From assembly GCF_900104945.1 (NCBI RefSeq), contig NZ_LT629736.1, positions 3,189,001 through 3,253,000 of the forward strand: 64,000 bases of DNA. The letters run 5' to 3'. The notes below the pieces were generated by a model. The model did not search any database, was not told where the DNA came from, and worked only from the letters and a program-made list of their open reading frames with translations. The translations under genes were made by a program, and so were the position numbers. This document shows, in pieces, positions 22,727-26,619 of this stretch (positions are counted from its first letter, which is position 1; each line of letters opens with the position of its first letter). The DNA comes from Halopseudomonas xinjiangensis (lineage in GTDB: Bacteria > Pseudomonadota > Gammaproteobacteria > Pseudomonadales > Pseudomonadaceae).

Positions 22727-22990
22727 CGGCTAATCCAATTACGGCTAAAAAAAGTGGCATTGCCCGCAGCTCCGGCTTCGTACGCCGCGTTATCCATACG
22801 GACTGCCTCGTTATTCGTTCCCGTCACGCTTCCTGTGCCAGTAGAGCGCCATGCTATCCGCCGCAAGGTGGGGCTGCAATGGTCAGACTGTCGCACTGAG
22901 TAGCCGGGATATAAAACCGCAGCAGTATATACTAAGCTACGTAGCGGCGTGAATGTCGTCGCCCCCATGCCAGCCTTCACGGATTCATCC

Positions 22991-23635
22991 ATGTCTCTAG
23001 CAACACCTCTAGTCTCCCTGTGCCAGCGCGCATCCTTTATCAAAAGTGCCAGCGAAGTCGATCAGTGCCCGCCCGATCAGGGTTTCGAAGTGGCGTTCGC
23101 CGGCCGCTCCAACGCGGGCAAGTCCAGCGCCCTGAACACCCTCACCCATGCTCGTCTGGCGCGCACGTCCAAGACCCCCGGACGGACGCAGCTGATCAAC
23201 TTCTTCGGTCTCGACGAGCAGCGCCGTCTGGTCGATCTTCCCGGTTACGGCTACGCCAAGGTGCCGCTGGCGCTCAAGGAGCACTGGAAGCAGCATCTCG
23301 ACGCCTACCTTACCCATCGCGACTCGTTGGTCGGGCTGGTCCTGGTCATGGATATCCGGCATCCGCTGTCCGATTTCGACCAGATGATGTTGCAGTGGGC
23401 TGGCGACAGCAGCCTGCCGACGCTGGTGCTGTTGAGCAAGGCGGACAAGTTGGCATTCGGGGCGTCGAAGAATGAATTGCTGAAAATTCAGGCTCGCGTG
23501 CGCAAGGAACATGGCGATCTGGTGTCGGTGCAACTGTTTTCATCGCCCAAGCGGCAGGGCGTCGACGAAGCGCACGCGGTGCTGGAGCAATGGTTTTTTC
23601 CTGATCTGCTGGATATCGATGCGGCTGAAGGCTGA
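22991..23635 (+). CDS. engB: ribosome biogenesis GTPase EngB (YihA/YsxC)
   Basis: A 214-residue essential GTPase of the TrmE-Era-EngA-YihA class that assists assembly of the 50S subunit. The G1 P-loop GRSNAGKS is at 38-45; G2 is in '[12 protein letters not shown]', G3 is 'DLPGYGYA', G4 is 'LSKADKL' and the G5-like 'VSVQLFSS' is near the end. I chose ATG 22991 because the family starts close to it; two earlier in-frame starts (22949, 22967) are possible, and the Shine-Dalgarno (ACGGA) is weak. It is followed by the sRNA locus and polA, which is the same order as yihA-spf-polA of enterics. Confidence 0.92.
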
Positions 23636-23654: not shown

Positions 23655-23695
23655 AAAAAAAACCCCGAACTTCTATGGGGAGGGAAGGTTCGGGG
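23655..23695 (-). terminator. terminator of the ErsA-like sRNA
   Basis: An 8-bp GC-rich stem with a 17-base loop and an uninterrupted run of eight T on the minus strand. On the plus strand there is no T tract after the stem, so it serves the sRNA rather than engB. Confidence 0.8.
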
Positions 23696-23788
23696 CTTAA
23701 CGACCGGGCTGTGCTAGGAAAGGGTTGCCCGGTTTTCTGCCAACACTAAATCACATCTAAGGAGCAAGAAGGGCTTGACTGGCCATTC
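23655..23788 (-). ncRNA. ersA: ErsA-like small RNA (Spot 42 position)
   Basis: In the gap between engB and polA, the minus strand carries an AlgU-type promoter (23795-23821) and, about 95 bases past the predicted start, a strong terminator: CCCCGAAC (plus 23663-23670) pairs with GTTCGGGG (23688-23695), followed on the minus strand by eight T. The expected transcript is about 130 nt. The terminator loop on the RNA is C/U-rich (CUUCCCUCCCCAUAGAA). P. aeruginosa ErsA is an AlgU-dependent sRNA of about 132 nt at exactly this locus and uses a C/U-rich stretch to pair with the algC ribosome site. Promoter class, length, position and loop all agree; the 5' end is estimated from the -10 box. No open reading frame is evident. 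Confidence 0.75.
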
Positions 23789-23794
23789 ACAAGC

Positions 23795-23821
23795 TCTGAC
23801 CGCCCCGTTTCGCTGAAGTTC
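23795..23821 (-). promoter_or_regulatory. AlgU (sigma-22) promoter of the sRNA
   Basis: On the minus strand GAACTT (plus 23816-23821) is followed after exactly 16 bases by TCAGA (plus 23795-23799). The AlgU consensus is GAACTT-N16/17-TCtGA, so the -35 is perfect and the -10 differs at one base. It lies between the polA stop and the sRNA and points toward the sRNA. Confidence 0.75.
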
Positions 23822-23871
23822 AAAAAAATTCCGCGAAACCACAAAAAAATTTTGAGCGGGACGAAACCGTT

Positions 23872-26619
23872 CTAGTGAGCCTCGTCCCAGTTCATGCCGG
23901 CGCCCACCTCAACGGCCAGCGGCACGTCCAGTTCCGCTGCCGCACTCATGCGCTGGCAAAGCCCTTCGCGCACACTGTCAACGAGGTCCTCTCGTACTTC
24001 GAGCACCAGTTCATCGTGTACCTGCATGATCACGCGCGCGTCCATCTGCGATTCGACCAACCAGCGGTCCACTTCGATCATGGCGCGCTTGATGATATCG
24101 GCCGCGGTGCCCTGCATGGGCGCGTTGATTGCCGTGCGTTCCGCCGCCTTGCGCATCGCCTGGTTCTTCGAATTGATGTCCGGCAGATACAACCTGCGTC
24201 CGAATAGCGTTTCGACATAGCCCTGCTCGTGCGCCTGATCACGGGTGCGTTCCATATAGCTGAGCACGCCGGGGTAGCGGACGAAGTAACGATCGATATA
24301 GGCCTGGGCTTCCTTGCGGTCGACGCCGATCTGCTTGGCCAGGCCAAAGGCACTCATGCCATAGATGAGCCCGAAGTTGATCGCCTTGGCGCTGCGACGC
24401 TGGTCGTTGCTGACCTCCTTCAGCGAGACGCCGAAGACTTCTGCAGCGGTTGCCCGGTGCACGTCCAGATCGTGACGGAAGGCATCGAGCAGACCCGGAT
24501 CCTGGGCCAGGTGCGCCATGATCCGCAGCTCGATCTGCGAATAGTCGGCAGCCACCAGCCGGTACCCCGCTGGGGCGATAAACGCCTGGCGGATGCGGCG
24601 GCCCTCGGCGGTGCGAATCGGAATGTTCTGCAGGTTCGGGTCCGACGAGGAGAGGCGGCCGGTCGCCGTCACCGCCTGATGATAGGAGGTATGAATGCGC
24701 CCGGTGCGGGCGTTGATCTGCTCAGGCAGGCGGTCGGTATAGGTGCTCTTGAGCTTGCTCATGCTGCGGTACTGCATGATCACCTGCGGCAGCGGGTAAC
24801 CCTGCTCGGCCAGCTCGGCGAGCACCGATTCAGCGGTAGATGGCTGGCCCTTGGCGGTCTTGGACAGCACCGGTAGGCCTTGCTGATCGTAGAGAATCGC
24901 GCATAACTGCTTCGGTGAGCCGAGATTGAACTGCTGGCCGGCGATGTCGTACGCCTGATGCTCGAGGTCGAGCATCTTCTCGCCCAGTTCGCGGCTTTGT
25001 ACGCCGAGCAGCTGCGCATCGACCAAGGCACCGAAGCGCTCGATGCGCGCCAGCACCGGCATCAGCGGCATCTCGATATCTTTCAATACGCTCATCAGGC
25101 TCGGATGCGCGCGCAGCTTCTGGACCAGTGTCTGGTGCAGGCGCAGCGTGACATCGGCGTCTTCCGCCGAATAGGGCCCGGCCTGCTCCACGGCCACTTG
25201 GTCAAAGGTCAGCTGTTTGGCGCCCTTGCCGGCAACGTCTTCGAAGCGGATGGTGTTCTCGCCGAGATACTTCAGCGCCAGACTGTCCATGTCATGGCGG
25301 GTGGCGGTCGAATCCAGTACGTAGGACTCGAGCATGGTGTCGAAAGCCACCCCGCGCATCTCGATGCCGTAGTGCGCCAGCACGTTCATGTCGTACTTGG
25401 CGTGCTGGGCGACCTTGAGCTTGGTTTCGTCTTCCAGCAGTGGCTTGAGTTGGGCGAGCACGGCGTCGCGGTCGAGTTGCTGCGGCGCGCCCATGTAGTC
25501 ATGGCAAAGCGGTATGTAGGCCGCCTCGTGCGGATTCACCGCAAAGGAGACGCCGACCAGTTCGGCCTCCTGTGCATTGAGGCTGGTAGTCTCGGTATCG
25601 AAGGCAAACAGCCGGGCGATCTCCAGCTTGTCCAGCCAGCGCTCCAGATCGTCCTGCTCGAAGATGATCTCGTAATGCCGCTCGACCTTCTCGGCTGGCT
25701 CGTCAGCCTTGACCGATCCTGGCTGGGCTCCGGCGCGGCTTTCGCGCTGCAGGTCTTCCAGCCAGTTACGAAACTCGAGTTCGCGGTACAGTTCTATCAG
25801 CGCTTCGCGGTTGGGCTCGCCCGGATGCAGCGCATCCACGCGAAGCTCGAGCTCCACGTCGGTCTTGATCGTGGCCAGCTGGTGCGACAGGTAGGCTGCC
25901 TCGCGGTGTTCGGTCAGCTTTTCGGCGAGCTTCTTGGCGCCGCGTATGTCCAGACCGGCGACCTTTTCGAGATTCTCGTAAATCACATCCAGCCCGCCGC
26001 CGAGGCCGCCGATCAGGCCGACCGCGGTCTTCTCGCCAATGCCAGGCACGCCCGGAATGTTGTCGGACTTGTCGCCCATCAGGGCCAGGAAATCGATGAT
26101 GCAGTCAGGGCCGACGCCGAACTTCTCGCGAACGCCCGCCTCGTCCAGCACGGTGCCGCTCATGGTGTTGACCAGCGTGATATGACCGTCGACAAGCTGC
26201 GCCATGTCCTTGTCGCCAGTGGAAATGATCACCGGGCAACCGTTCGCGGCGCTCTGACAGGCCAGCGTACCGATCACGTCGTCCGCTTCCACGCCCTCGA
26301 CGCATAGCAGCGGCAGGCCGAGCGCGCGAACACAGGCATGCAGGGGCTCGATCTGGCTGCTCAGCTCGTCGGGCATCGGCGGGCGGTGCGATTTGTAGTT
26401 TTCGAACAGGGCGTCGCGAAAGGTCGGACCTTTGGCGTCGAAGACCACCGCGAACGGGCTGGCCGGGTACTGCCGACGCAGGCTGCTGAGCATGTTGAGC
26501 ACGCCCTTGATCGCGCCGGTGGGCTGGCCTTTGGAGGTCGTCAGCGGAGGTAGGGCATGGAAGGCGCGATACAGGTAGGACGAGCCATCCACGAGGATCA
26601 GGGGGGCGGTATCAGTCAT
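23872..26619 (-). CDS. polA: DNA polymerase I
   Basis: A 915-residue three-domain polymerase. The 5'-3' flap nuclease occupies about 1-300 ('[20 protein letters not shown]' start, '[12 protein letters not shown]', '[20 protein letters not shown]'). The 3'-5' proofreading domain, about 320-500, keeps catalytic acids ('[12 protein letters not shown]', 'HNAKYD'-like '[10 protein letters not shown]'). The polymerase domain, about 520-915, shows motif A '[14 protein letters not shown]', the O-helix '[14 protein letters not shown]' and motif C '[10 protein letters not shown]'. All three activities should therefore be present. It functions in Okazaki fragment processing and repair. ATG 26619 begins the usual N-terminus. 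It is divergent from the DUF2782 gene. Confidence 0.96.

Follow-up and report, generated by a model that had tools for sequence, protein, structure and literature searches.

On the minus strand of the polA-engB intergenic region of Halopseudomonas xinjiangensis, direct reading of the sequence gives a promoter, then about 133 nucleotides and then a hairpin followed by eight U residues. The element lies in the window, i.e., the whole 64,000-nucleotide stretch analyzed here, and is clearly a new, expected ortholog in a known family, RF01719 (ErsA). As best explanation we propose, with a probability of roughly 0.87, an ErsA small RNA that would be transcribed by AlgU and would repress G-rich ribosome-binding sites by means of its terminator loop. 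The results suggest that ErsA at the polA-engB locus is an ordinary, known regulator and that a wider family of polA-locus RNAs is the new part worth following. The window ErsA itself comes from a genus in which targets need not equal those known from lung infection, and a literature search with thin coverage of subscription journals found no paper on Halopseudomonas together with a small RNA.

The RNA gene, its neighbors and its promoter

The original prediction had proposed an ErsA-like RNA and an Infernal search with the ErsA covariance model. Run as proposed, this search matched RF01719 (Pseudomon-1/ErsA) at 23767-23647 with 78.5 bits against a cut-off of 50, covering model positions 1-116 of 116, at an E-value of 1.2e-13 for the whole window against all families. 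It is the one match in the whole 3.54-Mb genome, and the ErsA-like identity is thus borne out by a full-length match, a single copy and the polA-engB locus. Within the genus, RF01719 was found in 36 of 37 genomes, the miss being a 92% complete assembly in about 350 contigs (G004), and within the family in 292 of 298, 281 of them above the cut-off; the family-wide misses are G004, G061, G072, G082, G083 and G250. None of 14 control genomes was matched; E. coli is named among the control genomes in the AlgU and algC profile searches. Four Pseudomonadaceae genomes (G037, G042, G054, G272) list two RF01719 matches each. From Pseudomonadaceae, 63 loci were fetched, a biased sample picked by best score that comprises 30 of the 36 genus matches and 33 others; polA was seen in 59 of these loci, engB in 61 and at least one of the two in all 63.

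The predicted transcript occupies 23655..23788 on the minus strand, with a start at about 23787-23788 placed from the promoter, 6-7 bases past its TCAGA element, and a resulting length of 133-134 nt. A model termed R1, whose training set includes the window sequence, aligns over 23788-23655. The RNA lies downstream of an ORF of 915 aa on the same strand (23872..26619, stop at 23872), which we take to be polA from its position. The convergent neighbor on the plus strand (22949..23635, 228 aa) is presumably engB (yihA) and has related loci in named Halopseudomonas. Inspection by eye revealed arms GGGACGA/TCGTCCC around the polA stop codon (23843-23888, minus strand) with seven T residues 8 bases on, possibly a weak candidate terminator of polA directly ahead of the ErsA promoter. 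In Halopseudomonas xiamenensis (L010 and L033, on an inferred common 260826-base contig) ErsA adjoins polA and engB is found about 7 kb away, so that something separates the two. A stretch near engB of Halopseudomonas pelagia (L035, 866-1013) matches the group II intron family RF02012 with 114.5 bits.

The promoter can be read from the sequence of the minus strand as the AlgU/sigma-E-type -35 element GAACTT (23816..23821), a spacer of 16 bases (23800..23815) and the -10 element TCAGA (23795..23799), as had been claimed. The AlgU -10 consensus is TCTGA, from which TCAGA differs in one base. In all 63 fetched Pseudomonadaceae loci an AlgU-type promoter scores 9-11 of 11 and is located 53-56 bases ahead of the start of the Rfam match. 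TCAGA is present in 56 of the 63 loci and GAACTT at the matching place in 38, the remainder being one- or two-base variants, while the spacer measures 17 bases in 51 loci and 16 in 12. Each exact AlgU-type site is individually rare in the genome; there is no genome-wide excess, with four sites of the form GAACTTN16-17TCNGA in 3.54 Mb against 12 for the reversed control. Since the reversed control yields more, the other three exact sites were dismissed as not meaningful. One exact site (at about position 1500 of L082, G000:C1:1669518) stands just ahead of an ORF of some 26 codons that is followed by a hairpin, which may be due to chance.

The genome encodes AlgU (TIGR02939, 330.4 bits, cut-off 236) and Hfq. 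The two ORFs after algU are presumably MucA and MucB, as judged by position, and upstream of algU a GAACTT with TCTCA 16 bases on was noticed by eye.

Fold, terminator and predicted targets

The RNA is organized into three stem-loops and a domain II, all on the minus strand. Stem-loop 1 (23768..23788) is followed by domain II (23734..23767) with its CUCCUU and GUUGGCAGA motifs, by stem-loop 2 (23703..23733) and by stem-loop 3, the terminator hairpin (23663..23695), in which the stem CCCCGAAC/GTTCGGGG encloses the loop CTTCCCTCCCCATAGAA. Within this loop, the C-rich segment CCCUCCCC (23677..23684) would be the probable seed for pairing with mRNAs; CCTCCCC is present in 62 of the 63 loci (29/30 from the genus, 33/33 others). 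The hairpin runs directly into eight T residues (23662-23655), i.e., eight U in the RNA (23655..23662), which form the terminator tail and a likely Hfq site. Both the strong terminator and a transcript of about 130 nt had been foreseen; the former is read directly and the latter agrees with the 133-134 nt predicted by the span from promoter to terminator. A simple terminator scan, restricted to loops of 3-8 bases, did not list the ErsA terminator, probably owing to this limit. The folding energy of 23786-23655 is mildly unusual (z -1.99, with 8 of 200 shuffles folding as well), which is weak evidence.

Covariation was assessed in alignment A1, consisting of 44 of the 63 Pseudomonadaceae RNAs, 39 of them distinct. 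Standard pairs fill 93.6% of its cells, a value that falls to 50-52% when the partners are slid by one column. Both-side changes occur in 9 of 22 pairs, where shuffles average 5.1 and none of 500 reaches this value, and in 45 cells, where shuffles average 12.5; within Pseudomonadaceae, further pair types are not above shuffles, 486 of 500 of which equal or exceed the observed value. The fold that the original prediction wanted supported by covariance therefore has such support, and compensatory changes accompany a structure of three stem-loops of which the first is the weakest. Stem-loop 2 is paired in 100% of cells with both-side changes in 5 of 7 pairs, stem-loop 3 in 94.9% with such changes in 2 of 8 pairs, and stem-loop 1 in 85.9%, with one of its 7 pairs mismatched in 36 of 39 sequences. 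Domain II contains many invariant columns. RNAalifold on A1 gave a small covariation term (-1.49) and both-side changes in 7 of 22 pairs; it shortens stem-loop 1, keeping only 3 of its pairs, and instead closes domain II by joining its two ends through 4 pairs.

Judging from the sequence, we propose that AlgU would be released from MucA under envelope stress and would then start transcription at the GAACTT-N16-TCAGA promoter that closely follows polA, yielding some 133 nt of RNA up to the U8 terminator. The exposed terminator loop, probably together with Hfq, would pair with G-rich ribosome-binding sites and thereby repress translation, and domain II may pair with other targets.

With regard to targets, pairing of the loop with the ribosome site of algC had been suggested. 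The genome encodes AlgC in a long, 835-residue form, and algC occurs in 37 of 37 genus genomes, the best match always exceeding 1000 bits. Among the 30 of 37 genus matches that were fetched (L086-L115), 27 carry GGAGGC ahead of the long algC start, roughly 90 bases upstream of the algC match. As background for predicted pairing served the translation starts of 57 ORFs in the window, chosen by a script and perhaps not all genuine genes. The 15-nt loop core reached -12.6 kcal/mol at the long algC start and -11.8 kcal/mol at an internal start, values equaled or bettered by 9 and 10 of the 57 ORFs, respectively; for the 22-nt loop the corresponding energies were -13.0 kcal/mol (11/57 as good) and -16.3 kcal/mol (3/57 as good). 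The suggested pairing is therefore unspecific at the long start and finds slight support at the internal start with the 22-nt loop, and we do not uphold algC as a clearly preferred target. CCUCC is the anti-Shine-Dalgarno core. As the ErsA loop contains it, the loop is predicted to pair with many ribosome sites, and the computed profile fits an RNA acting on strong ribosome sites in general.

RNAs at the polA locus outside Pseudomonadaceae

At the level of the order, RF01719 matched 23 of 293 genomes, 13 of them Pseudomonadaceae and above the cut-off and 10 outside the family and all below it. Of the stretches around these 10 matches, eight carry polA and/or engB, and two from a single family (f2), one of them cut by a contig end, carry neither. 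The 11 RNAs located there contain TGTGTTT(T)AGTGTTGGCA in seven cases and a variant in three; neither is present in L120, where R1 gave no match. GAACTT precedes the Rfam start by 56-58 bases in 10 of the 11 and by 70 in L120. These order-level forms combine the ErsA motif with CCCCC loops. At the engB loci of Oceanospirillum and Allopseudospirillum (L040-L042), neither RF01719 nor R1 matched, and no such RNA was seen in the 900 bases after engB.

A second model, R2, was trained on 26 RNAs, 11 of which stem from nine genomes outside Pseudomonadaceae. It matched 41 of 390 order genomes, 18 Pseudomonadaceae and 23 others, 14 of the latter untrained; 10 of the 12 loci fetched from these 23 have polA and/or engB. 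GAACTT-N16/17-TC was found near the start at 11/11 order-level loci (L157 left out) as compared to 3/649 control windows, most genomes or genera in this test being part of the R2 training.

Among 369 genomes of the class, R2 matched 23, two of them Pseudomonadaceae and 21 from outside the order, the latter spread over 15 GTDB families. R2 begins at the transcript start and is blind to promoter and neighbors, and none of these 21 genomes was used in training. Nevertheless, polA and/or engB lie beside 19 of the 21 matches, from 13 families; the exceptions are L166 and L174, of which a shortened stretch was used for L174. Near the start, GAACTT-N16/17-TC is present at 14 of 20 loci (L174 left out) vs. 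5 of 1178 control windows. In all 20 folded RNAs, CCC occurs in two or more hairpin loops, and in 13 of them in at least three. When 20 of the 21 RNAs (L171 left out) were searched against Rfam at E-values up to 0.01, RF02837 (anti-hemB) was found in 13, once above the cut-off (L162, 51.7 bits), RF02232 (sX13) in two, L175 (48.3 bits, cut-off 50) and L172, and RF01719 in L175 and L159, while seven loci (L163, L164, L168, L169, L170, L174, L178) had no match at this level.

The R2 alignment of 41 RNAs from 32 loci, some of them training sequences and all fitted to the model, has 95.1% of its cells paired and 323 cells with both-side changes, compared to a shuffle mean of 88.8. Its covariation amounts to 0.897 vs. 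0.209 in shuffles (0 of 500 as high), and both-side changes affect 22 of 22 pairs, which 13 of 500 shuffles reach. Some loci contain more than one copy of the polA-locus RNA, namely four in tandem in L175 (1081-1832), three in L119 (2230-2851), of which two are strong and the third weak, and two each, some weak, in L125 (2317-2638), L116, L123 and L173.

The anti-hemB model is independent of R2 and was run on 38 genomes at E-values up to 5, a lax level at which 13 of 14 control genomes also match. The polA-locus RNA came out as its best match in 7 of 9 class-level genomes, in none of the 7 order-level genomes (of 10) for which a best place was listed, and in 1 of 19 Pseudomonadaceae (G036). 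In the genome of the window its best match (24.0 bits) is not at the ErsA locus. This test did not confirm homology of ErsA and anti-hemB.

Origin of the RNA and comparison with known systems

Two rival readings of the window RNA were weighed and found improbable. That it is a mere polA terminator or a fragment of the polA 3'UTR without its own gene would agree with the shared strand, with a -35 element only 51 bases past the polA stop codon and with the absence, by eye, of a clear polA terminator between the two; yet promoter elements, the 5' stem-loop and domain II are conserved between polA and the terminator, and the homolog in P. aeruginosa is a 132-nt transcript according to PMC5819304, so that we regard this reading as highly improbable. 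Somewhat less remote, and still unlikely, is a true Spot 42 ortholog, catabolite-controlled and kept in the polA-engB position. The locus is indeed shared, and ErsA is said in a review to have been first identified as a functional ortholog of Spot 42 (PMC8395346). On the other hand, RF00021 is absent from the matches on the window RNA up to an E-value of 10, RF01719 was not found in any of the 14 control genomes, and the sigma-E-type promoter contrasts with the control of Spot 42 by CRP. Of the original statement that ErsA and Spot 42 occupy the same locus, the common polA-engB place holds and a similarity to Spot 42 (RF00021) in Rfam does not; the link is one of synteny only, not of family, and membership in the Spot 42 family was rejected.

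A third reading widens the explanation as ErsA and does not contradict it: in Pseudomonadaceae, ErsA would represent an old family of sigma-E-driven RNAs at polA-engB whose loops are C-rich and to which sX13 of Xanthomonas and anti-hemB of Burkholderia also belong. We consider it somewhat more likely than not, given that R2 finds such RNAs in 21 genomes outside the order, 19 of them beside polA and/or engB, that promoter and CCC loops recur there, that RF02837 and RF02232 match among them, that order-level forms unite the ErsA motif with CCCCC loops, that the aligned RNAs covary, albeit in an alignment fitted to the model, and that place, orientation, promoter type and order of parts agree. 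Against this, the independent RF02837 ranks the ErsA locus first in a single one of 19 Pseudomonadaceae and not in the window genome, few of the class genomes are matched by R2, similar RNAs may have converged on one locus, and a C-rich terminator by itself is enough for a weak match to an unrelated family such as RF02399.

Spelled out as a history, for which we see slightly better than even chances, ErsA, sX13, anti-hemB and the RNAs of at least 12 further families of the class would go back to a single ancestral small RNA at polA-engB. A sigma-E-type factor would already have transcribed this ancestor, whose C-rich hairpin loops, as mimics of the anti-Shine-Dalgarno sequence, would have shut G-rich ribosome sites in response to envelope stress; on the way to ErsA, one C-rich hairpin would have been replaced by the U-rich domain II. 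Whether the polA locus of other bacteria encodes such RNAs was asked in the 2013 sX13 paper (PMC3771888), and the matches suggest that it does in 13 further families of the class, mostly with a sigma-E-type promoter. If true, separate Rfam families that belong to no clan would join into one testable envelope-stress system. Our literature search, with subscription journals thinly covered, found no paper joining any two of sX13, ErsA, anti-hemB, ar7 sRNA and Pseudomon-1, and the link may be published elsewhere.

Compared with known RNAs, the window RNA shares the polA-engB locus with Spot 42 of enterics (RF00021) and differs from it in promoter control. Spot 42 is described as Hfq-dependent in PMC3771888. 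Anti-hemB, or Burkholderia RNA 7 (RF02837), matches weakly over most of the window RNA (23772-23655), but its 19.8 bits are far below the cut-off of 49.5, and the best match of the genome lies elsewhere. According to PMC5688073, anti-hemB is among the biofilm RNAs of B. cenocepacia. sX13 of Xanthomonadaceae (RF02232) resembles the window RNA in adjoining polA, in its three stem-loops and in having C-rich loops, and RF02232 gave no match on the window RNA up to an E-value of 10. Unlike in the window RNA, each of the three loops of sX13 carries a C-rich motif; these motifs act on G-rich motifs near the translation starts of its targets, which are required, and sX13 has no need for Hfq (PMC3771888).

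The closest counterpart is ErsA of P. aeruginosa, an RNA of 132 nt that depends on sigma-22 and acts on algC, amrZ and oprD in an Hfq-dependent manner (PMC5819304, PMC7565897, PMC8395346, PMC8575079); Pseudomon-1 has a table row of its own in PMC2864571. Common to both RNAs are the post-polA locus, a sigma-22-type promoter, a length of about 132 nt, three stem-loops, a U-rich domain II, described as unstructured in P. aeruginosa (PMC8575079), and a C-rich terminator loop with a U tail. The window RNA nevertheless represents a divergent branch of ErsA, scoring 78.5 bits as opposed to 123.7-145.7 for the best-listed Pseudomonadaceae copies, with a stem-loop 2 that differs in stem sequence and has a loop of some 17 nt, and with a promoter spacer of 16 bases in place of the 17 found in P. 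aeruginosa ErsA and most relatives.
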